Below are positions 3,027 to 39,311 of a DNA stretch of 39,311 nucleotides, one piece after another. The position numbers were made by a program, and so were the translations under genes. The notes under the pieces were generated by a model. It was not told the origin of the DNA, searched no databases, and saw nothing but the letters and a program-made list of their open reading frames with translations. How positions within the stretch are numbered: position 1 is the stretch's first letter; the number at the start of each line of letters is the position of its first letter. The stretch is from Campylobacterota bacterium (GTDB lineage: Bacteria; Campylobacterota; Campylobacteria; Campylobacterales; Sulfurovaceae): contig JAUPLS010000174.1 of assembly GCA_030836805.1 (NCBI GenBank), forward strand, positions 1 to 39,311. The letters run 5' to 3'.

Positions 3027-3377
3027 GTAAGTGGTAAAAAGTTATTGCTATATATGCAATAGGTTGAGCAAAGAGTAGGGAGGGGAAACCGCCGAACGGC
3101 TTTGCAAGTCCTTAAAAACAGCGCAAGAAAGAGAGCAGGCGCAACGGTGGGTGAATGATAGATCCGGCTCGGGAGCATAGAAATATGCCATAAGTCTGTC
3201 ATCGTCCATTTCGGTCCATACGGTAGTGACCAGTTGGTAAAACGCAAAAAAACATGGGAGGGTTTCGTCTTTTAATCCTCCGGTAGTATATAAAGATCTT
3301 AAGTAACTCAGAAGCATAAGTATATCAAAGAATGTTTTGCGGCTCGGTTTTCTATTTCAAGGTTTTGGTTTTGGTGG
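3027..3377 (+). ncRNA. Large structured RNA, copy 1 (novel or HEARO/omega-RNA-like)
   Basis: No credible coding sequence covers this stretch. It is much more GC-rich than its surroundings and aligns over its whole length with 17232-17590, with blocks of near identity (AGGGGAAACCGCCGAACGGC, GGCTCGGTTTTCTAT, AGCATAAGTATATCAA). Helices are supported by paired changes between copies: TATTGC/GCAATA here against GGACGT/ACGTCC; GCAAAG/CTTTGC against GCAAAAG/CTTTTGC; ATGATAGA/TCTGTCAT against ATTATAGA/TCTGTAAT; GCATA-GAAA-TATGC against GGATA-TATCT. A GGAGG/CCTCC helix is conserved. The overall pattern recalls the HEARO (omega) RNAs that partner IscB nucleases, but no iscB is present. The structured-RNA call is firm; the family is a memory-based guess. 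ORFs shown on the minus strand here are shadows. Confidence 0.82.
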
Positions 3378-3410
3378 TTTTATTTTTGTATCTCGTATTT
3401 GATTTTGCTA

Positions 3411-3438: not shown

Positions 3439-3457
3439 AAAAATAAAGGAGTTGAAT

Positions 3458-3898
3458 ATGAAGAAAACAAATGTGCGTTATGTTAATCGCTGCAATTTAA
3501 CTCTTGTTAATCAGTTGAATGATTTGCTCAAAAATTCTGGCTATAGATTTGAATATGAATATGTTTATAACAGACACGAGCAAATTATCAAGCGTGAATA
3601 TATAATCAAAGTTTTGGAAGAGAACAGCGATACAAACATCACTGAGCCGCTTTTTTGGTATAGTGAGAATGGTCAAAGATGTGTCAAAAAAATAACTTAT
3701 GATGATGTTATTGCAAAAATAAACAACTATATGACAGCATACAAAGAAACAGGATATGCACTCCATCAGCCAGCATTTGAATATTTTGTGCAATGCTTTG
3801 ATGATATTAAAAACATTCTTGAAGTAAACAAAACATATAATAGTATTAACAGTAAACTAAAAACAACGACTAAATGTATTAAGACTTTAAAAGTATGA
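3458..3898 (+). CDS. Cassette protein with C-terminal LKV tag (unknown)
   Basis: 146 residues from ATG 3458; the track starts at an upstream TTG, but AAAGGAG stands six bases before this ATG. The protein is polar, mixed alpha/beta, with aromatic-rich strands (YRFEYEYVYNRHEQII, LFWYSENGQR) and a C-terminal helical part. It ends in KTTTKCIKTLKV, close to the ends of five other plus-strand proteins of this genome. It is the first gene of a cluster whose members overlap by four bases. No family recognised. The cluster lies next to RNA copy 1 and may be an early host-takeover unit. Confidence 0.72.
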   Translation: MKKTNVRYVNRCNLTLVNQLNDLLKNSGYRFEYEYVYNRHEQIIKREYIIKVLEENSDTNITEPLFWYSENGQRCVKKITYDDVIAKINNYMTAYKETGYALHQPAFEYFVQCFDDIKNILEVNKTYNSINSKLKTTTKCIKTLKV

Positions 3899-4179
3899 GC
3901 GACGACGATTTTAATAAACTGAATGACTATTTAATTAAAAGAGATTATTTTTTTAAAATTCAATCTGGGATAATACAATTTTATTATTACTCAAACTGTC
4001 GTTCGTATTTTACTGTTAAAATTAAAAAGTCAAACGATTTTTTTAAAACATTTTTAGAAGGATTGGAAGTAAATAACGACAAGAGATTATATGATATTGT
4101 GCAAGACTATTATTTGAATGAAGTGTTATCCAAAAAAATTGCTATTCCAGATAAAGAAATAAAGAGGATGAAAATATGA
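3895..4179 (+). CDS. Cassette protein with C-terminal MKI tag (unknown)
   Basis: 94 residues. It starts in the ATGA overlap with the preceding gene and ends in another ATGA overlap with the next, so it is translationally coupled. It is rich in Asp, Lys, Phe and Tyr. The C-terminus KKIAIPDKEIKRMKI shares the AIP[ED] motif and the basic-hydrophobic ending with the proteins at 8276 and 34861, although the rest of the sequence is not obviously similar. No family recognised. Confidence 0.68.
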   Translation: MSDDDFNKLNDYLIKRDYFFKIQSGIIQFYYYSNCRSYFTVKIKKSNDFFKTFLEGLEVNNDKRLYDIVQDYYLNEVLSKKIAIPDKEIKRMKI

Positions 4180-4427: not shown

Positions 4428-4688
4428 ATGAAAAGAGAAGATGTTGAAAAGTTTCTAAATTATTTAAACGATCAAATAAAAGTTTTAAAAACCCATAAAT
4501 TTGAATACTGTGAAAACAATACTTATTATTTTGTTTTGATTTATAATAAATTGCCAAACGAATGCCCATATATGTTTTTTAGATTTAATTACAATGAGAA
4601 TTTTGATGTTGGCTCTGTTTATAAAACAATTATGAATGATGAAAAATTAAAAACTTTGGCTTTTGTGATGGGGTTAAATAATGAATAA
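4428..4688 (+). CDS. Cassette protein of unknown function (86 aa)
   Basis: 86 residues, acidic, with an N-terminal helix (VEKFLNYLNDQIKVLKTH) and an aromatic beta region (YYFVLIYNKLPNECPYMFFRFNY). It has a strong ribosome-binding site (ATAGGAG) and its 3' end overlaps the phosphoesterase-like gene by eight bases. It lacks the KLKI-type C-terminus seen in other cassette proteins. Not recognised. Confidence 0.65.
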   Translation: MKREDVEKFLNYLNDQIKVLKTHKFEYCENNTYYFVLIYNKLPNECPYMFFRFNYNENFDVGSVYKTIMNDEKLKTLAFVMGLNNE

Positions 4689-5664
4689 AATAACTAAGCA
4701 AGACCTTGTAAAAAAAATAAAAGAATTGCAATCGTTTGGGGAAGTGGCAAGACATTTTGGGGTTGATAGAAAAATTATTTATAAGAAGCGTAAAGAATAT
4801 AATATTTTTGAGTTGGTGTGCGGCGAGCAATTTCAATTGACATATGAGCAAGTTGATAGCATTAACGAAGCAGCGCCAAAAGATATGCAAATAATTAGCA
4901 GTTTAGATGATATTAAAAAAGAAGTCAACCATTTTATTATAAGTGATATGCAGATATCGCAAGGTGTAGATTTAAAACACTTGACAGCAATTGCAAAAGA
5001 AGTTATTGATCGCAAGCCAGATGTGTTGATTTTTTTAGGTGACTTCTGGGATATGAAATCACTTTATAACATAACAAAAGATCAGTTTGATGGCAAGAAA
5101 TATAAAAGCGATGTGCGTGTTGGAATTGAAGCGATGCGCATTTTAATGGAATTGATTATTGCTGAGGAGAAGAAAACGGGCTGGAAATTGCGAAAAGTTT
5201 TTTGTTTGGGAAATCACGAGCATAGAATAAATAAAATAGCAAACAGTTATAAAGCCCTTAATGGTTTAGTTTCAATCGATGACTTAGAGTTGAGCCAATT
5301 TAATTTTGAAGTTGTTGAATTTTTAAAGCCAATCATTATTGATGATATAGCATATTGCCATTATTTTACTAATGGACTGATGAACACTCCAATACAATCA
5401 ACAAGGCTTTTAGTGCAAAGAAAATTGATGAATTGCGTTATGGGTCATAAGCAAGCGTTTAGCATACATAGAGAAGTAAAAGCAAGCGGAGAGCCTGTGT
5501 ACGCAATTTTTGCGGGTAGCTCATATTTACACGATGAAGAATATTTGACGGAACAGGGCAACCATTACAGCCGCCAAGTTTGGGCATTGAACAATGTTGG
5601 GGAGAAGACTTTTGAGCCAGAAATTTTATTTTTAAATCGTTTGATGAAAAAATGGGGTTGCTAA
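4681..5664 (+). CDS. HTH-fused calcineurin-like metallophosphoesterase (divergent)
   Basis: 327 residues. Residues ~6-45 (FGEVARHFGVDRKIIYKKR) are a helix-turn-helix. The remainder follows the calcineurin-like phosphoesterase plan: FIISDMQ (~86-91, in the place of the first D-x-H), FLGDFWDM (GDxxD, ~119-125), CLGNHEHR (GNHE, 177-180) and MGHKQ (254-258, in the place of GHxH). Two usual metal-ligand histidines appear as Gln, so activity may be altered or use a different metal set. Family members cut nucleic acids or phosphodiesters; with the HTH the target is probably DNA. It overlaps the preceding gene and is followed by a decayed gene and a terminator. Confidence 0.78.
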   Translation: MNKITKQDLVKKIKELQSFGEVARHFGVDRKIIYKKRKEYNIFELVCGEQFQLTYEQVDSINEAAPKDMQIISSLDDIKKEVNHFIISDMQISQGVDLKHLTAIAKEVIDRKPDVLIFLGDFWDMKSLYNITKDQFDGKKYKSDVRVGIEAMRILMELIIAEEKKTGWKLRKVFCLGNHEHRINKIANSYKALNGLVSIDDLELSQFNFEVVEFLKPIIIDDIAYCHYFTNGLMNTPIQSTRLLVQRKLMNCVMGHKQAFSIHREVKASGEPVYAIFAGSSYLHDEEYLTEQGNHYSRQVWALNNVGEKTFEPEILFLNRLMKKWGC

Positions 5665-8152: not shown

Positions 8153-8178
8153 ATTGTTTAATTCCTTAATATTTTTAT

Positions 8179-8206
8179 ATTATAGTTTTTTTATAAAAAA
8201 AAGCAA
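8179..8206 (-). promoter_or_regulatory. Promoter of the portal gene
   Basis: Minus strand TTGCTT, 16 bp, TATAAT, about 27 bases before the portal start. It stands back to back with the plus-strand cassette promoter at 8214, with only AAAACAC between the two -35 boxes. Confidence 0.78.
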
Positions 8207-8213
8207 AAAACAC

Positions 8214-8250
8214 TTTACACGACCAAAAAACAGTATAATATATATAGTGT
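8214..8250 (+). promoter_or_regulatory. Cassette promoter, copy 1
   Basis: TTTACA, 14 bp, TATAAT, then ATATATAGTGT and AGCAC. The same arrangement recurs at 25305 and 34801. The 14-bp gap to TATAAT is short; TAATAT two bases further gives 16 bp. The strictly conserved downstream block suggests a regulator site as well as the promoter. Confidence 0.7.
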
Positions 8251-8275
8251 AGCACATAATAAAAAGGAGAATAAA

Positions 8276-8716
8276 ATGAATAAATACTTAATGGAAGAAA
8301 TTAAAAACATAGCTGGGGGTATAATGGATCAGCTTGCATATGATTGGATATATTTTGATATAAAAGATTTAAAAGAGTTTATTGAAAATGTAGGATGTAA
8401 TCCTGAGGGTGTATTTGTTGAATGGTGTGACTCTTATTTTCCAAATCATGAAGATGCAATTGAAGTTTTAAGACAAGATGAAGCCGCAGTTTATGCTGCA
8501 TTTAATGGATTTATTAAAGTAAAAGATGCTGCTCATATTATATCATATAGGAACGATTGTATATATGATATTTACGATTTAAAAGACTTTGAAAAAATTG
8601 ATGAGTTAAAATATTTGATTGAAAATATTGATGAGTTTATTATTAAAAAAGAGAAAGAAGAACTTGAAAATGCTATTCCAGAAGTAAAAACAGAAAGCAA
8701 AAAATTGAAAATTTAA
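8276..8716 (+). CDS. Cassette protein with AIPE...KLKI C-terminus (unknown)
   Basis: 146 residues, strongly acidic with a basic end. The N-terminal part contains LKEFIENVGCNPEGVFVEWCDSYF; the remainder is helical (DFEKIDELKYLIENIDEFI). The last 16 residues, NAIPEVKTESKKLKI preceded by Glu, closely match the end of the protein at 34861 (KAIPEAKSTTKKLKI), though the bodies differ. It has its own promoter and AAAAGGAGAATAAA ribosome-binding region. It is a single-gene cassette between portal and large terminase on the opposite strand; its stop overlaps the terminase stop by four bases. Function unknown. Confidence 0.75.
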   Translation: MNKYLMEEIKNIAGGIMDQLAYDWIYFDIKDLKEFIENVGCNPEGVFVEWCDSYFPNHEDAIEVLRQDEAAVYAAFNGFIKVKDAAHIISYRNDCIYDIYDLKDFEKIDELKYLIENIDEFIIKKEKEELENAIPEVKTESKKLKI

Positions 8717-10065
8717 AACCATCCGCCAGAACTTCTGGCGGTTTCTTCTTTTTTCTTTGTATTTTCTTCGTCTATAAAATCAATCCATCCGCCATTCTTG
8801 TTTTCGCTTAATTCAGTTAATGCCCAAACTAAAGCATCAAGGCGGTCTGGTGACTTCTGTTTTGTATCGCCAGTGTAGTTGACCATTTGATCTTCTAACT
8901 TGCCAAACATTCCGATATGGTGTACTTTTCCCTGCTCGTATAATGCACTTATTGGCTCGGCTCTCAATATCTTTCCTCTTGTTGCCGTAACTTTTTTATA
9001 CGACACATTGCCATCTAAATTTCGTATAATGTCTTCAATCATATCGCCGCCATTGTTTGTTTCTGCTATTATTCTATCGGCTTTATAATCATAATAAGCA
9101 TTGATTGCAACTCGTGCCCAATCAGCAGGTTTGGCAAGCACTGTCAAATCTTTTATGATATAATAATGCCCGTCCTCACCTTTTCCAGCCACAACAATAC
9201 CAGTAAAGTCAGCCTCGGCGGAAGAAGTTACAGCGGGGTCAATAGCTACAACGATACGAGAAAAACTGTCATAATTTTCAACACGTAAGTCATCAATTTG
9301 TTTTAATGTCCATAATGCGTTCTCGTTTTCTTCTAAAACTTCCGCATATATTTCTTGTCTTCCAAGTCTTGTGCCTTCATACTTATCAATAATTTTATTT
9401 AAAAATGAAGGTGCTAAATTATTTTTATTGTCAAAAGTTGAGCCTCTCGTTATAATTGTTGATTTTTCTTTTATTAGATCTTTTATTAGTTTGGTTGGGC
9501 GTGGTGTAGTTGTTATACACGCCTGAGGATTCTTTCCTAAGCGCAAACCTAAAAATACTTGATCCCAAGCGTCAGGATAACGCCAAGCCGCAAGCTCATC
9601 AGCCCACAATTTCATGTGTTGTTTTCCGCGCATACGATCTGGTTCTTCTGCTGAGAAAATTAAACTAATAGCACCATTAGGCCAGTATAGTTGCCCATTC
9701 TTAAATGTTGGTCGATCCCACCTATCACAAACGCTTAAAATTCCACTCTCACCCTGAACCATAATTTGTTTAGCATCGTCACTCGTTGCACCTATCAAAT
9801 TAACATACTTATTTGTTTTAACTTGCTCTTTAATCCACTCAGCGCCAACCCTTGTTTTTCCAAATCCACGCCCAGCCATAACCAACCAAATCATCCAATC
9901 TCCATCAGGTGTTCTTTGTTGTGGTCGTGCATTCCAATCCCAATCATAAAAAAGTTTTTCAGCCTCGTCGTCGCTCATTTTCATAATGCGGCGGATCTGT
10001 TCTTCTTTGCTTAACTGTTGGAATAGTTGTCTTTTACTTAATATTGACATAATAATATTATCCAT
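8713..10065 (-). CDS. terL: Terminase large subunit
   Basis: 450 residues. This is the ATP-driven DNA packaging motor and headful/cos nuclease. Walker A is AGRGFGKT (64-71), Walker B LWADE (153-157) and the coupling motif TTTPRP (185-190). The C-terminal RNase-H-like nuclease shows AIDPAVT (D276), AETNNGGD (E335) and SPDRLDAL (D410). The transcript from promoter 10078-10105 would start near 10071, leaving the ATG at 10065 almost leaderless; the second ATG at 10050, after GGAT, may be used. Unusually it follows the capsid gene instead of the small terminase, which lies 4.4 kb upstream in transcription order. Confidence 0.95.
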   Translation of the reverse strand: MDNIIMSILSKRQLFQQLSKEEQIRRIMKMSDDEAEKLFYDWDWNARPQQRTPDGDWMIWLVMAGRGFGKTRVGAEWIKEQVKTNKYVNLIGATSDDAKQIMVQGESGILSVCDRWDRPTFKNGQLYWPNGAISLIFSAEEPDRMRGKQHMKLWADELAAWRYPDAWDQVFLGLRLGKNPQACITTTPRPTKLIKDLIKEKSTIITRGSTFDNKNNLAPSFLNKIIDKYEGTRLGRQEIYAEVLEENENALWTLKQIDDLRVENYDSFSRIVVAIDPAVTSSAEADFTGIVVAGKGEDGHYYIIKDLTVLAKPADWARVAINAYYDYKADRIIAETNNGGDMIEDIIRNLDGNVSYKKVTATRGKILRAEPISALYEQGKVHHIGMFGKLEDQMVNYTGDTKQKSPDRLDALVWALTELSENKNGGWIDFIDEENTKKKEETARSSGGWF

Positions 10066-10128: not shown

Positions 10129-10188
10129 ATGTTAAATAAATGTTTTGATATAGCAAAAGAGATTATACCAAATTTTTGTGGCGAATAA
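10129..10188 (+). other. Remnant of a plus-strand cassette (19-codon ORF)
   Basis: Bases 10103-10128 (GCAAAAAACACTTTACACGA and following) match the promoter region at 34791-34817, but the TATAAT block is absent and an ATG follows at once. The frame encodes only MLNKCFDIAKEIIPNFCGE before TAA, just ahead of the minus-strand terminator. It looks like a cassette that lost most of its gene and promoter. Confidence 0.45.
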
Positions 10189-10189
10189 G

Positions 10190-10214
10190 AAAAACCCCGC
10201 TTTTTAAGGCGGGG
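10190..10214 (-). terminator. Rho-independent terminator after major capsid gene
   Basis: Minus strand CCCCGC-CTTAAAAA-GCGGGG then TTTTT, 23 bases past the capsid stop. It shares its loop with the terminator after the tail-tube gene, so both highly expressed structural genes end in the same terminator design. Confidence 0.88.
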
Positions 10215-10236
10215 CAATTCTTTTTACTTTTTGCGA

Positions 10237-11709
10237 TTAGGCGTTGATGTTATAAATCAATCCAAAAGCAGGTGGGAAGTAGTTTTGTAATACGCCATCA
10301 AAATAAACGCCAAACTCATACTTTCTATTTCTTAGTGGCCATTCAATTTGGTAGTAGTCACGTCTTAAGTTTTTCACCAAAACATTACCAACTTCAGAAA
10401 CAGGGTAAGGAACACCACTTGAGTAGAACATAACAGTGCCCGGTGCTGCATTTGGATGCACTTCAATTTTAACACTGTTTCCAGTGATTTTATTTAAGTA
10501 AGAGCTAACAACGGCACCAGCTTGGAAACCACTTGAACCATTGATATCGCCATTGAAACGAATTAGAGGAGCGCCACCATTTGCAATGATTAACTTGTTC
10601 ATATGCTTTAATACTGAAGCGGATACATACATTTTATCTGGAGACAAACGATACATATTATAGAAGTTTTCTAATGCTTCGTCAATCTCAACAATTCCAC
10701 CAGCACCATCAGAAGTCATTCCAGTGTTTCCAGTTGCCAATGCTTTAACATAAGAACCAGAGCCAGATTTTACGATCTGAGTTAATAAACCGTCATACAC
10801 ATTGGAATCGGTTGATTTATCAGCAGTGAAAGCAGAAGCAGCAACAGATCCGGTTCCTGCGGCGGTCTTAATGGTCAAGCTATTAACAGAAGTTACAGCG
10901 CCTAATACTTCAGAGCCAGAAGCACCCCAGAACCAAGCAAATCCGAAAGCTCCGGCAATATTTGCAACAGTAGCGGTAACGCTTGAAGAAGCAGCGGCAG
11001 TCGTTACAGTAGCAGCAGCAGACTTTTGAGCAGTACCAGCATTTACAACATTAGAAGAACCATCACCCTTATCAATAAGCGTAACAGTTGGAACAAGCGT
11101 TGCACTTGCGATGTTTAAAGACTGACCAGTTACGCCGTTGTTGAAACCAGCAACTTGTTGATATCCTTTTTGTGATAAAGCAACACATATAACAGATACT
11201 TGAGTTGCATCTGGAATAGAACCACCAGAACCAACAGCAGCCAACACAGGAGTACCAGTTGTGCCCAAAGCGTGGGAAGCATTACCAGCATAATCCAAAA
11301 ACTCTTCTTGAATCATAACGGCTTGTAGCAAATCTTTAGCAGCACGAGCACGGATATTATCAAAACCTTGCGCAGCCAATTCAGCTTCAAAAGTAACCGA
11401 GTTGTTTAAACCCAAAAAAGCAAACTTTGCCAAATAGTCTTGAGTGCTTTGTGCAATCTCATAACCCCTTTGACCTTCAGCTAATCCAAGACCCAAATTT
11501 GCAGTATTAATACCAGTCACCGCTCTCCAGTTTGCTTGTATACCCATTCCACCAACCACACGAGCGATTTCATTTCTCAATGGGGTATTAACTGGGTATA
11601 AAGTTTTTGCTGGTGCTTCTAAGTCATACATCGTTAAGCCAGAGGTTGCAGATCCAGACTGGCTATATGCTTTTGCTAATAGGTCAAGCGTTTCTTGTGT
11701 GTTATTCAT
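10237..11709 (-). CDS. Major capsid protein (HK97-fold)
   Basis: 490 residues. It forms the head shell. It opens with a helical arm (TLDLLAKAYSQ) and TLYPVNTPLRNEIARVVGG. The C-terminal half is the clearer HK97-type part: SPDKMYVSASVLKHMNKLI, IRFNGDINGSSGFQAG, VSEVGNVLVKNLRRDYYQIEWPLRNRKYEFGVYFDGV. Residues ~175-300 are an Ala/Ser/Val/Thr-rich block that looks like an inserted surface domain, explaining the length beyond a typical 300-400-residue capsid. It lies directly after the protease/scaffold gene and before a strong terminator. The ribosome-binding site is AAGGAAAAAAAAG. Confidence 0.88.
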   Translation of the reverse strand: MNNTQETLDLLAKAYSQSGSATSGLTMYDLEAPAKTLYPVNTPLRNEIARVVGGMGIQANWRAVTGINTANLGLGLAEGQRGYEIAQSTQDYLAKFAFLGLNNSVTFEAELAAQGFDNIRARAAKDLLQAVMIQEEFLDYAGNASHALGTTGTPVLAAVGSGGSIPDATQVSVICVALSQKGYQQVAGFNNGVTGQSLNIASATLVPTVTLIDKGDGSSNVVNAGTAQKSAAATVTTAAASSSVTATVANIAGAFGFAWFWGASGSEVLGAVTSVNSLTIKTAAGTGSVAASAFTADKSTDSNVYDGLLTQIVKSGSGSYVKALATGNTGMTSDGAGGIVEIDEALENFYNMYRLSPDKMYVSASVLKHMNKLIIANGGAPLIRFNGDINGSSGFQAGAVVSSYLNKITGNSVKIEVHPNAAPGTVMFYSSGVPYPVSEVGNVLVKNLRRDYYQIEWPLRNRKYEFGVYFDGVLQNYFPPAFGLIYNINA

Positions 11710-17231: not shown

Positions 17232-17590
17232 ATAAGAAGTTTTTATTAATGGACGTGAGTAACGTCCGGTGCAAAAGAGTATGGAGGGGAAACCGCCGAA
17301 CGGCTTTTGCTAACTTATAACGCACAAGAACGAGCGCAGGTGCAACAGAGGGTGGATTATAGATCTGGCGTGGGGGATAGTAAAATATCTGTAAGTCTGT
17401 AATCGTCTTGTTTCGGTCCATACGGCAGTGACCAGAATACGGAGATAAACGAAATCACTATGGGAGGGTTTCGTCCTTTAATCCTCCGGCAGTATATAAA
17501 GATCTTAAAACATAGTAACTCAAAAGCATAAGTATATCAAGAAGGTTTTGCGGCTCGGTTTTCTATTCAGGGGTTTGGGTTTGGTGAGCG
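17232..17590 (+). ncRNA. Large structured RNA, copy 2 (novel or HEARO/omega-RNA-like)
   Basis: It is homologous along its length to 3027-3377 and fills the only other long gene-free gap. Helices seen: GGACGT/ACGTCC (17251-17267); GCAAAAG/CTTTTGC (17271-17277 with 17304-17310); ATTATAGA/TCTGTAAT (17356-17363 with 17396-17403); GGATA/TATCT; GGAGG/CCTCC. All pair in both copies despite sequence change. It ends in the conserved GCGGCTCGGTTTTCTATT followed by GGGGTTTGGG. An ORF would be expected there if this were an IscB element, but none follows; the next gene is convergent. The RNA may act on its own or in trans with a host protein. Confidence 0.84.
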
Positions 17591-22183: not shown

Positions 22184-22267
22184 GGATAGTGAGCGGCATT
22201 GGCGACTGCGGTAGACTGTAAATCTATGTCCTCTGGACACTTGGTTCGACTCCAAGACTATCCACCA
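22184..22267 (+). tRNA. tRNA-Tyr (anticodon GTA), CCA encoded
   Basis: 84 nt. Acceptor GGATAGT pairs with ACTATCC; the anticodon stem AGA/TCT has loop CTGTAAA (anticodon GTA); a long variable arm TGTCCTCTGGACA makes it class II, as bacterial tRNA-Tyr should be; the T arm is CTTGG-TTCGACT-CCAAG; CCA is encoded. No integrase or attachment-site duplication is near, so it is a working phage tRNA and not an integration scar. It leads the 22.3-23.3 kb unit. Confidence 0.95.
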
Positions 22268-25304: not shown

Positions 25305-25343
25305 CTTTACAACATATAAAAATAGTATAATATATATAGTGTA
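25305..25343 (+). promoter_or_regulatory. Cassette promoter, copy 2
   Basis: TTTACA, 14 bp (ATATAAAAATAG-type), TATAAT, ATATATAGTG, TAGCAC. Nearly identical to 8214 and 34801, but here without a minus-strand partner promoter, inside the plus-strand cluster directly after the helicase stop. Confidence 0.7.
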
Positions 25344-25367
25344 GCACATAAAAACAAGGAGAATAAA

Positions 25368-25649
25368 ATGGAACAATTAGGATTAATAGAATTAGGCGGA
25401 TTTGAAGAAGGTAAATATGAGCAGGGCAAGATTGATTTATACACATACAATTATGACATTTTTACAAAATTGGTTCACTTGCAAAAAGATGTGGCGCTTG
25501 TAGATTATATTGATAGTGTGATTTTTGATAATAAAGAGATTGAATTAACTGATAACGCATTATTCTTTTTAGGTGATTTAAAATATAACCACTTACAAAA
25601 AATGAAGCAGGGCGAAGAGTTTAACTGGGAAATGGATGAATTGGTTTAA
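25368..25649 (+). CDS. Acidic cassette protein (93 aa)
   Basis: 93 residues, pI clearly low, with helical segments (YNYDIFTKLVHLQKDVALVDYIDSVIF) and an acidic end EEFNWEMDELV. It has the cassette promoter and the leader AAGGAGAATAAA shared with the genes at 8276 and 34861, but no LKI-type C-terminus. Not recognised. Confidence 0.68.
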   Translation: MEQLGLIELGGFEEGKYEQGKIDLYTYNYDIFTKLVHLQKDVALVDYIDSVIFDNKEIELTDNALFFLGDLKYNHLQKMKQGEEFNWEMDELV

Positions 25650-25661
25650 AAGGTGAATAAT

Positions 25662-25880
25662 ATGTATACATTAAAAACGATATTGACAAAACAAGAGTAT
25701 GGAAATGACATAACTGTTTATAGTTTTAAAATTAAAGAGGATGACTTGATTTATGAAATTATGATTGATTGGTCTGGTGGAATAGATTATGAGATTATAG
25801 TTAATAATGAAAGGGAAGCATTCTTCTCGGAATATGAAAAGTTTGCAAACATAAGCGATTATTTTTTAATGGAAATTTAA
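25662..25880 (+). CDS. Cassette protein of unknown function (72 aa)
   Basis: 72 residues from ATG 25662, six bases after AAAGGTG; the track GTG start is inside that ribosome-binding site. Beta-rich (ITVYSFKIKEDDLIYEIMIDWSGG, YEIIVNN) with a short C-terminal helix. It lies 12 bases after the preceding gene in the same transcript. Not recognised. Confidence 0.6.
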   Translation: MYTLKTILTKQEYGNDITVYSFKIKEDDLIYEIMIDWSGGIDYEIIVNNEREAFFSEYEKFANISDYFLMEI

Positions 25881-25892
25881 AGGGGAAAGAAA

Positions 25893-25925
25893 ATGAATAT
25901 AAAAAAAGAAGTTGGAAAGAGTTAA
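25893..25925 (+). other. Ten-codon ORF with strong ribosome-binding site
   Basis: AAAGGGGAAAG precedes ATG and MNIKKEVGKS-stop. It is either a leader peptide or the stump of a truncated cassette gene; the next gene starts 24 bases on with its own AGGAG. I cannot decide between these. Confidence 0.3.
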
Positions 25926-25949
25926 AAAATACACTTTAGGAGAACAAAA

Positions 25950-26255
25950 ATGACTTATAATGAAATTGATTTGGTTAATGGTAGTCTTGAGCAATTAAAA
26001 TATTTGGTTGCCAAACTAAAAAAAGTAGATGCAAGAGATGTTAATTGTGAATTTAAAGAGAGTTTTTTTGGCTTTAATATGGCAAAGTTAATTATAACAT
26101 ACTATAAAGATAATTACAAGTATTCAATAGAGGGTCGTTCATATGTAACAAATGAAGAGTGCCAGATGGCTGGCATAACTGAGTATGAATTAAAAATAAA
26201 TATGATTAATAGTTTTGTAAAAAAATGCAACAAGGAGGTTGAATATGTCTTCTAA
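25950..26255 (+). CDS. Cassette protein of unknown function (101 aa)
   Basis: 101 residues. N-terminal helix (LVNGSLEQLKYLVAKLKKV), then strands with Cys and Phe (CEFKESFFGFNMAKLIITYYKDNYKYSIEG) and a C-terminal helix. AGGAGAACAAAA precedes the ATG. Its 3' end overlaps the next gene by 11 bases, where AAGGAGG lies inside its last codons. Not recognised. Confidence 0.66.
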   Translation: MTYNEIDLVNGSLEQLKYLVAKLKKVDARDVNCEFKESFFGFNMAKLIITYYKDNYKYSIEGRSYVTNEECQMAGITEYELKINMINSFVKKCNKEVEYVF

Positions 26256-26562
26256 TTATAAAGTAAGACCAGATGACGAAGAAATTAGTTATATTGAAAA
26301 ATTACAATACGATGCAAGCAATGATAGTTATTTTATTTTATTCAAGACTTTTATTGATAATGTTCCAGAATTTTTAGAATTTAAAATTGAGCAATGGGAA
26401 GAATTTTTTGATGGCGATGGACTTTATAAAATGGATAGAAAAATAAAGAACTATGAACTGATGAGAGACTTTATAAAAATTAAGAGGGCAGAAAAGATTT
26501 ATAACCACTATGATAAACTGATTGATAAAAAAGAAAATACGACTAAAAGATTGAAAGTATAA
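26245..26562 (+). CDS. Cassette protein with C-terminal RLKV tag
   Basis: 105 residues from ATG 26245, six bases after AAGGAGG; the TTG in the track is less likely. Acidic, with strand SYFILFKTFIDNVPEFLEFKIEQW and a basic helical end. It ends in DKKENTTKRLKV, matching the TTKKLKI-type ending at 34861 and the KTLKV at 3458. It is the last gene of the 22-26.5 kb island. Not recognised beyond that. Confidence 0.68.
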   Translation: MSSNYKVRPDDEEISYIEKLQYDASNDSYFILFKTFIDNVPEFLEFKIEQWEEFFDGDGLYKMDRKIKNYELMRDFIKIKRAEKIYNHYDKLIDKKENTTKRLKV

Positions 26563-26567
26563 AAACA

Positions 26568-26583
26568 CCCCGCCTCGGCGGGG
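26568..26583. terminator. Bidirectional terminator between convergent genes
   Basis: CCCCGC-CTCG-GCGGGG. The minus-strand side is followed by TGTTTTTAT, a good T tract closing the coiled-coil membrane gene; the plus-strand side has a weaker one. Confidence 0.8.
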
Positions 26584-34741: not shown

Positions 34742-34765
34742 GCCCTTATTTTTTACTATAATTAT

Positions 34766-34793
34766 ATTTTAAATTTTTTTAAAAAAAAAGCAA
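34766..34793 (-). promoter_or_regulatory. Promoter of tail-tip module
   Basis: Minus strand TTGCTT, 16 bp, TAAAAT, back to back with cassette promoter copy 3. It supplies the tip genes separately from the tape measure. Confidence 0.66.
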
Positions 34794-34800
34794 AAAACAC

Positions 34801-34837
34801 TTTACACGATATAAAAATAGTATAATATATATAGTGT
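34801..34837 (+). promoter_or_regulatory. Cassette promoter, copy 3
   Basis: TTTACA, 14 bp, TATAAT, ATATATAGTGT; matches copies at 8214 and 25305. The upstream GCAAAAAACAC is shared with 8204 and with the remnant at 10103. Confidence 0.7.
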
Positions 34838-34860
34838 GATACAATAAAAAGGAGAATAAG

Positions 34861-35082
34861 ATGGATAAAAATTTATTGGATAATATAATTGATGAATACT
34901 TTTTAAAAAATGAAATAGGTCTTATTAATATGTTAAGGGGTAAACAAGCTCCAATGGGTCTTTTAGAACAAATTCTTGAAATGCAAAAACAACAAATAGA
35001 AGAAGATATTTTGAAAGAAAAAGAACATCTTGAGAAAGCTATTCCAGAAGCAAAATCAACAACTAAAAAATTAAAAATTTAA
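34861..35082 (+). CDS. Cassette protein with AIPE...KLKI C-terminus (73 aa)
   Basis: 73 residues, helical and charged (LLDNIIDEYFLKNEIGLINMLRG, ILEMQKQQIEEDILKEKEHL). The last 15 residues KAIPEAKSTTKKLKI are nearly the same as the end of the 146-residue protein at 8276, whose body is different. Leader AAAAAGGAGAATAAG. First gene of a three-gene cassette between the tape measure and distal tail genes. Function unknown; the tag is the only recognisable part. Confidence 0.72.
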   Translation: MDKNLLDNIIDEYFLKNEIGLINMLRGKQAPMGLLEQILEMQKQQIEEDILKEKEHLEKAIPEAKSTTKKLKI

Positions 35083-35092
35083 GGAGAATAAA

Positions 35093-35260
35093 ATGCAAAA
35101 AGTAAATTGGGATAGAATATATTATATACACGAAGAGATTGAAAACTATTTTTTACTTAAAAAACTATTGAAGAATAGAAAAGAAAATAAAGAGACTATC
35201 AAAAAGACTATTGACAACTTGAGAAAAATTAGGGAGGACATATATTATTATGGATACTAA
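35093..35260 (+). CDS. Small basic helical protein (55 aa)
   Basis: Not in the ORF track. AAGGAGAATAAA stands before ATG 35093, ten bases after the preceding stop. It encodes MQKVNWDRIYYIHEEIENYF, a run of Lys-rich helix (LLKKLLKNRKENKETIKKTI), and ends REDIYYYGY. The ribosome-binding site and 11-base overlap with the next gene support it as a real cistron. Unknown function. Confidence 0.62.
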   Translation: MQKVNWDRIYYIHEEIENYFLLKKLLKNRKENKETIKKTIDNLRKIREDIYYYGY

Positions 35261-35630
35261 AATGCAAAACATTGACATTATAAACGAATATCTAAAAGAT
35301 GTAAACTGTATTTTAAAAGTTAAGCAGAACAGTGAAAGATTCAAAGATTTAAGCTTTGCCAATTATAGTATTCAAGTGAAGTTTGTTGGTGGCGGTGGTT
35401 TTACTTTTACAGTTTACGAAGAATTAAAAAGCAAGACTGTTGAAGATTTAATAAGTGTTATACTTTCAAATTTGGATTACTTGAAAGACTATGACGATTA
35501 TGACAATCGTATGATTGAGTTTGCCAATAAAATAAATGAGGTATATGATTTTTTAGAGTGCTATGAGTATAACACAACTTGCAAATATATAAAAGAAAAT
35601 AATAAAAGTATTGACAGATTAAAAATTTAG
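35250..35630 (+). CDS. Cassette protein with C-terminal RLKI tag (126 aa)
   Basis: 126 residues. AGGGAGG lies 13 bases before ATG 35250; a second in-frame ATG four codons in is an alternative start. Mixed alpha/beta: IIINEYLKDVNCILKVKQ-type start, a strand pair around VKFVGGGGFTFTVYEEL, then helices. It ends in ENNKSIDRLKI, one of six LK[IV]-ending proteins. Its stop overlaps the tape-measure stop by four bases. Not recognised. Confidence 0.68.
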   Translation: MDTKMQNIDIINEYLKDVNCILKVKQNSERFKDLSFANYSIQVKFVGGGGFTFTVYEELKSKTVEDLISVILSNLDYLKDYDDYDNRMIEFANKINEVYDFLECYEYNTTCKYIKENNKSIDRLKI

Positions 35631-39140: not shown

Positions 39141-39311
39141 TTTTATTATCCTCATTAAAAACTTTATTTTTTACAAAAACCTCATCAACCATTATTGTTG
39201 CGAATATGTTAAATAAGAAAATACAGAATAGAGCAAAGTTTATTGCTGTCAACTGTTGCACGATAATCATATCCAAAACAGTGAAGCCGAAAAAAATTAA
39301 ATTCAATATAA
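39133..39311 (-). CDS. Small two-TM membrane protein, 3' part (gene crosses circle junction)
   Basis: The same gene as 1-152. Within the window the reading frame enters at 39311 and ends TAA 39133, coding ...LTAINFALFCIFLFNIFATIMVDEVFVKNKVF and a polar tail. The stop overlaps the start of the chaperone paralogue (ATGTTTAA), indicating coupling. Confidence 0.65.
   Translation of the reverse strand, partial: ILNLIFFGFTVLDMIIVQQLTAINFALFCIFLFNIFATIMVDEVFVKNKVFNEDNKNV
39191..39311. repeat. Right copy of 121-bp terminal direct repeat
   Basis: Identical to bases 1-121; see the left copy. Joining the two gives an uninterrupted reading frame of the small membrane protein. Confidence 0.95.

Follow-up and report, generated by a model that had tools for sequence, protein, structure and literature searches.

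A common C-terminal tail on dissimilar accessory proteins of four phage contigs, a candidate docking module

Tagged accessory genes of the window phage

The window, i.e. the whole stretch of 39,311 nucleotides that was analysed, is a single phage contig (C173) of a 175-contig, 1.73-Mb genome bin, and its minus strand holds the structural, packaging and lysis genes. Spanin-like genes are present in the phage, and Omp85 matches in the binned genome indicate a diderm. An identical 121-nt direct repeat is found at both ends (1-121 and 39191-39311), and thus either the assembly is circular, with about 39,190 bp, or the contig is terminally redundant. The GC content of the phage contig is about 33%, compared to 40% for its bin, the terminase has no relative in the other searched genomes of the genus, and the capsid protein had no match in 398 other genomes of the order. 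For these reasons it is possible that phage and bin do not belong together and that the assignment is a binning error. Among annotated phages, there is no close relative of the window phage.

Six plus-strand accessory ORFs of this phage encode proteins with similar ends, which a preliminary description had listed as a shared tag, and all six exist with their ends exactly as claimed. The first, at 3452-3898 (148 aa from a TTG, end IKTLKV, tail LKTTTKCIKTLKV), has a product without Pfam or PHROG family. It is followed by the ORF at 3895-4179 (94 aa, end IKRMKI, tail IAIPDKEIKRMKI), which has an ATGA overlap with both of its neighbours. The ORF at 8276-8716 (146 aa, end SKKLKI) forms a single-gene cassette between the portal and terminase genes, and its last 13 codons and stop (8675-8716) may serve as an example of the terminal module, with the tail IPEVKTESKKLKI. 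A search for relatives of this protein found none, and an AF2 model made without alignment was poor (mean pLDDT 54), with the tail not confidently folded. The ORF at 26239-26562 (107 aa from a TTG, end TKRLKV, tail IDKKENTTKRLKV) is the last gene of its operon, and the operon at 34861-35630 contains the two remaining ones, at 34861-35082 (73 aa, end TKKLKI, tail IPEAKSTTKKLKI) and 35250-35630 (126 aa, end IDRLKI, tail IKENNKSIDRLKI). Judging from the position of the RBS, the two ORFs with TTG starts probably begin at an ATG six bases further on, at 3458 and 26245, respectively. Immediately upstream of the plus-strand accessory block lies a tRNA-Tyr (GTA) gene (22184-22267).

Several of the tagged genes look like moron cassettes, as far as consensus matches, on which all promoter and terminator assignments given here are based, can indicate this. 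The leader of the 8276 ORF (8161-8275, plus strand) contains the promoter-like sequence TTTACA-16-TAATAT (8214-8241) and the RBS GGAG, and a terminator-like hairpin (8723-8741) lies just 3' of the ORF. The same promoter-like sequence and leader recur on the plus strand at 25306-25367, in front of the operon whose last gene is the 26239-26562 ORF, with a GC-rich terminator-like hairpin just behind this ORF (26568-26583), and again at 34801-34860, heading the operon 34861-35630. A promoter-like and a terminator-like site of their own, a position between late genes and an orientation on the opposite strand, as is typical of morons, are thus found together at 8214-8741 and at 25306-26583.

Not all of these cassettes are independent of each other. 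In the leader of the 8276 ORF, 103 nt are 81% identical to 34748-34850, and the last 76 nt of the 34861 ORF are 80% identical to 8641-8716, while the middles of the two ORFs are unrelated. The motif AIP[ED], which had been described in three of the proteins, does precede the end by 8 residues in the 3895 ORF and by 10 in the 8276 and 34861 ORFs, and two of these three cases are explained by the shared 3' end.

A signal at the DNA level, such as a terminator, an RBS or a stop-start overlap, was considered as a general cause of the conserved ends and rejected. The context downstream of the tags differs, with a terminator in some cases and an overlapping gene or a new RBS in others. ATGA overlaps with the next gene occur at two of the six tagged ends of the window (3898 and 4179), and over all four contigs, a stop-start overlap exists in 9 of the 26 tagged or tag-like ends and is absent in 17.

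Two further elements were noticed in the window. An imperfect element of ~330 nt is present in two copies, at 3060-3390 and at about 17250-17590, which are partly 86-96% identical; the pair has no Rfam match, and its single-strand fold is no better than that of shuffled sequences (z -0.4). On the minus strand, 10187-10306 gave a sub-threshold Rfam match to the Trp operon leader (E 0.2), which is probably due to chance.

Occurrence of the tail in other phages

When ORFs of at least 45 aa were taken and the frequency of the motif inside the same plus-strand proteins served as binomial background, K[IV] ends were found in 6 of 19 plus-strand and 0 of 38 minus-strand proteins of the window (P = 5e-7), in agreement with the earlier statement that no minus-strand structural protein ends in this way. 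For [KR]xK[IV] ends, the counts were 5/19 and 0/38 (P = 1e-9), with a background of 5/3449 ORFs, and there was not a single [LM]K[IV] end among 573 ORFs of the bin ("host").

Via the major capsid protein, two related phages were reached in IMG/VR, whose core genes are syntenic with those of the window: G322 (3300002461_000454), with a capsid protein 73% identical to that of the window, and G320 (3300036715_001581), with 67% identity and the near-identical contigs L174, L176 and L256. In both, small proteins encoded opposite to the structural genes carry comparable ends. These are IKRKIKI, IIKKVKI, IKRKIKI and TKRKVKI in G322, and, in G320, NGKSKI, KIKHKI and VKKSKI, the last in three intact genes of which two are ankyrin paralogs. 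The residue at -3 varies by phage but is coherent within each, being L/M in the window, I/V/F in G322 and S/H in G320. In G322, [KR]xK[IV] ends occur in 5 of 28 proteins of the accessory strand and 0 of 29 of the structural strand (P 4e-8), in G320 in 5/23 and 0/30 (P 1e-9). The K[IV] test, which is less adjusted to these phages, gave P 1e-4 and 1.5e-6, respectively. The G322 counts of both tests include an Eco57I-type methylase, and the G320 count of the K[IV] test alone an EcoRI-type methylase, that were later withdrawn as tag evidence. The latter ends in IKNIKI (L260:11794-12675) and the former in IKKFKV (L257:4216-5712), and in both cases untagged homologs are similar at this place (RILIKxK.. 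and IKxFxV, respectively), so that these are natural family C-termini and no evidence of tag addition.

A scan of viral contigs with the window-type tag pattern yielded 95 stretches with one match each, most of them isolated and probably due to chance, with the exception of one contig that carries a series. This fourth contig (3300033067_001793; L335/G462) is a 25.5-kb fragment with nine tagged ends, PKRKVNKI, IEKKWSKI, IEKKRGKI, EKPKKLKI, NQKKLNKI, VAIRKLKI, TITKRLKI, TERKVNKI and IDRKVNKI, one of which was the search bait while the rest were unselected. K[IV] ends are present in 10 of its 27 plus-strand ORFs (P = 2e-13, with the bait tag still counted). KKLKI and KRLKI occur here as in the window, a closeness that is partly an effect of ascertainment, as the contig was found by its tag. 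Its terminase belongs to another family than that of the window, and the sole DNA match between the two is a 220-nt stretch of a phosphoesterase gene. A metallophosphoesterase gene (phrog_221) is common to the window (4681-5664), G320 (L260) and the fourth contig (L369:82-1335), with about 48-53% identity, and the latter is otherwise dissimilar to the window.

Further searches added nothing to this set: helicase and portal as baits revealed no new relatives, a DNA search of viral contigs for AIP[ED] plus tip and a tblastn search of the consensus tail against annotated phages gave no match, Brevundimonas phage Strzyga and Fusobacterium phage phiFN37 lack a tag series, and genomes of the order and phylum of the binned host gave scattered weak tag or module matches, but no series of C-terminal tags.

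The shared tag is thus confirmed and extends beyond the window. An enrichment in related phages had been proposed as a check, and the excess of such ends in G322, G320 and the fourth phage is larger than expected from composition; chance or composition as the source of the tag is ruled out by the strand, host-ORF and internal-frequency counts.

Composition of the tail and the proteins that carry it

The conserved region is longer than the tag first described. In 24 tails (one of which, D_10722, is doubtful), K at -2 and I/V at -1 are invariant (24/24 each), K/R is found at -5 in 21 and at -4 in 17, L/I/V at -13 in 17, and a hydrophobic residue at -17 in 14 of the tails. From this spacing, the tail can be read as a predicted helix that is followed by a polar linker and a basic tip, and the helix would end some 13 residues from the C-terminus. 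A tail HMM scored 23 members at E below 7e-4, while the next best of the 20,691 C-termini had E 0.5, but this test is circular, and a leave-one-phage-out test was therefore run, in which the best non-training, non-paralog C-termini among the 20,691 were scored. Fourth-contig members came out on top (E 6e-6, 1e-3 and 0.03), the window and G320 were recovered weakly, and G322 failed. Due to this outcome we regard the tip as the firm part of the module and the helix as the softer one; similarity between the phages is weak beyond the last five residues.

As to the bodies, pairwise similarity within the window is limited to the 8276 and 34861 ORFs (residues 116-146 and 44-73), i.e. to their tail region, and the simple paralogy that had been named as the competing explanation was thus not found. 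The relatives broaden this picture: one tagged protein of G320 is an ankyrin-repeat protein (L259:157-831; Ank_2 E 6e-40), and a tagged protein of 323 aa on the fourth contig (L335:9441-10412) consists of DUF4116 repeats (E 2.5e-21; its AF2 model without alignment was poor, with pLDDT 63). The other tagged bodies have no confident family match and are orphans. A whole-protein paralog family does not fit such unlike bodies, and the earlier idea that the tail behaves as a module on dissimilar proteins is borne out.

Could the tail be a mere by-product of cassette history? Cassettes might duplicate or recombine at the shared leader and 3' end, and the bodies might diverge or be replaced, so that only the tail remains. 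The 8276/34861 pair, alike in leader and 3' end but not in the middle, is what one would expect from such events, as are the ankyrin cassettes of G320, which are tandem duplicates with the promoter-like sequence right after each tag, and the about 65 C-terminal residues that three proteins of the fourth contig have in common. However, the tips are conserved where DNA similarity is gone, and the tail has never been acquired by structural genes. Moreover, the codons of the tag vary: Leu is encoded by TTA, TTG or CTT, Ile by ATT, ATA or ATC, Lys is also varied, and TAA, TGA and TAG all serve as stops. For the Ser at -3 of the G320 tags, one gene has TCA and others have AGT or AGC, and one residue is thus kept by codons without one-step interconversion. 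Together with the differing downstream contexts, this codon variation points to selection on the peptide, and we consider a purely historical origin to be very unlikely. In the tandem ankyrin cassettes of G320 (L259:1-1660), the next promoter-like sequence directly follows each cassette, and one cassette copy has an in-frame TAA ahead of its tag.

Candidate functions of the tail

What can be seen directly is a common tail that is confined to accessory genes, occurs on four phage contigs, has a phage-specific residue at -3 and sits on unrelated folds. As a short and constant peptide at the free C-terminus of many unlike bodies suggests docking or targeting, we propose, with moderate confidence, that the tail serves as a docking module by which unrelated accessory proteins bind one receptor. 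In such a mechanism, the module would have been fused to many unrelated, fast-changing accessory proteins in a set of low-GC phages. Its parts would be an amphipathic helix, roughly of the form LKxELxxxL, then a linker of some 8 residues that is polar and flexible, and finally the basic tip K-[KR]-x-K-[IV] with its free carboxylate. One receptor would bind tip and helix, and different accessory proteins would thereby be brought to the same machine or place, while the variable bodies would provide target specificity, which corresponds to the logic of adaptors with a constant tail and a variable body. The putative receptor is more likely a host or early phage component than a virion protein. It speaks against docking that tails could also spread through repeated segmental duplication of their cassettes, with no common receptor being needed, and the 8276/34861 pair demonstrates that such duplication happens.

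The strongest rival to the docking tail is a virion-loading tag, which would bind the inside of the prohead, at the capsid or a scaffold domain, so that the accessory proteins would go into the head and be injected along with the DNA, like T4 internal proteins or P1 Dar proteins. The tagged cassettes do sit within head and tail gene clusters, phages package anti-restriction proteins via short terminal signals (PMC9024508), a C-terminal peptide brings cargo into the HK97-fold shells of encapsulins (PMC7355545), and phages with capsid proteins of 67-73% identity have different variants at -3. On the other hand, the known capsid-targeting signals of T4 and P1 are N-terminal, whereas the tag is C-terminal in every case, and the tagged genes come with promoter-like leaders of their own, in an orientation opposite to that of the late genes. 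The fourth contig has the same tip, although its terminase is of another family and no structural homology could be detected in the known part of it. This argues against virion loading, if weakly, as the contig is incomplete and was picked out through its tag. Overall, virion loading appears unlikely to us.

The tail could also be a degron, i.e. a basic-hydrophobic end by which ClpX or a different AAA+ protease would recognise the accessory proteins and limit their lifetime. The ClpX recognition signal RRKKAI of MuA (PMC8138137) is similar in that basic residues precede a terminal hydrophobic residue with a free carboxylate, and many unrelated substrates can have such a signal in common. But in MuA and ssrA, there is Ala at -2, and the small nonpolar residue expected there for a MuA-type signal is replaced by Lys in all 24 tails. 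Moreover, helix and linker exceed a simple degron, and a phage-specific variation at -3 would not be expected with a conserved unfoldase, which together make a degron quite improbable. More doubtful still is a secretion or translocation signal for phage effectors, in analogy to C-terminal type IV secretion signals, with the ankyrin and DUF4116 bodies being directed at eukaryotes. Two tagged bodies are indeed of repeat types known to bind other proteins, and the signal is C-terminal, basic and hydrophobic, but the binned genome (94% completeness) has no VirB4 family match, the assignment of the phage to this bin being uncertain. We consider this explanation to be extremely unlikely.

How does the proposed docking tail compare with known systems? 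It does not correspond in full to any of them. Like encapsulin cargo-loading peptides, in which short C-terminal peptides of unrelated cargo bind in one pocket (PMC7355545), it is a C-terminal peptide common to unrelated proteins; encapsulin cargo peptides, however, sit beside the gene of their shell. The encapsulation peptides of microcompartments, amphipathic helices that various enzymes carry at the N- or C-terminus, connected via a flexible linker (PMC11157265), have a similar build, but their recognition resides in the helix, while here the terminal pentapeptide is most conserved. The sequences of T4 internal proteins and of P1 DarB, of which the N-terminal 30 residues suffice as packaging signal, are likewise phage tags, taking accessory proteins into the head (PMC9024508), but they are N-terminal and without consensus among Dar proteins, and the tail is C-terminal. 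The C-terminal MuA signal likewise combines basic residues with a hydrophobic last residue (PMC8138137), but it belongs to one protein and lacks the helix-linker module, which occurs here on many proteins. In poxvirus ankyrin/F-box (PRANC) proteins, a variable binding body is combined with a constant C-terminal dock that recruits one machine (PMC9414399). This analogy concerns the logic only, as the dock there is an F-box for a eukaryotic ubiquitin ligase, and here it would be a short tail in a bacterial virus with a putative receptor.

It is tempting to extend the docking tail to a whole adaptor system of prokaryotic viruses, in which rapidly changing target binders, among them ankyrin repeats, DUF4116 repeats and orphans, would all carry one constant C-terminal plug and redirect a machine to many targets. 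The machine at the plug would be the same host or phage one throughout, in the manner of the poxvirus ankyrin/F-box adaptors. This idea rests on two annotated repeat families, with most bodies being orphans, and we regard it as rather doubtful. In the literature available to us, we came across no description of a C-terminal tag common to phage accessory proteins, which is weak evidence for its absence.

If the docking tail is real, it marks accessory proteins as one functional class despite their unlike bodies, and it offers a handle on proteins that are beyond the reach of homology-based annotation. It would also indicate a receptor that is used by several different phages, and a short, portable tag for protein recruitment would be on offer.
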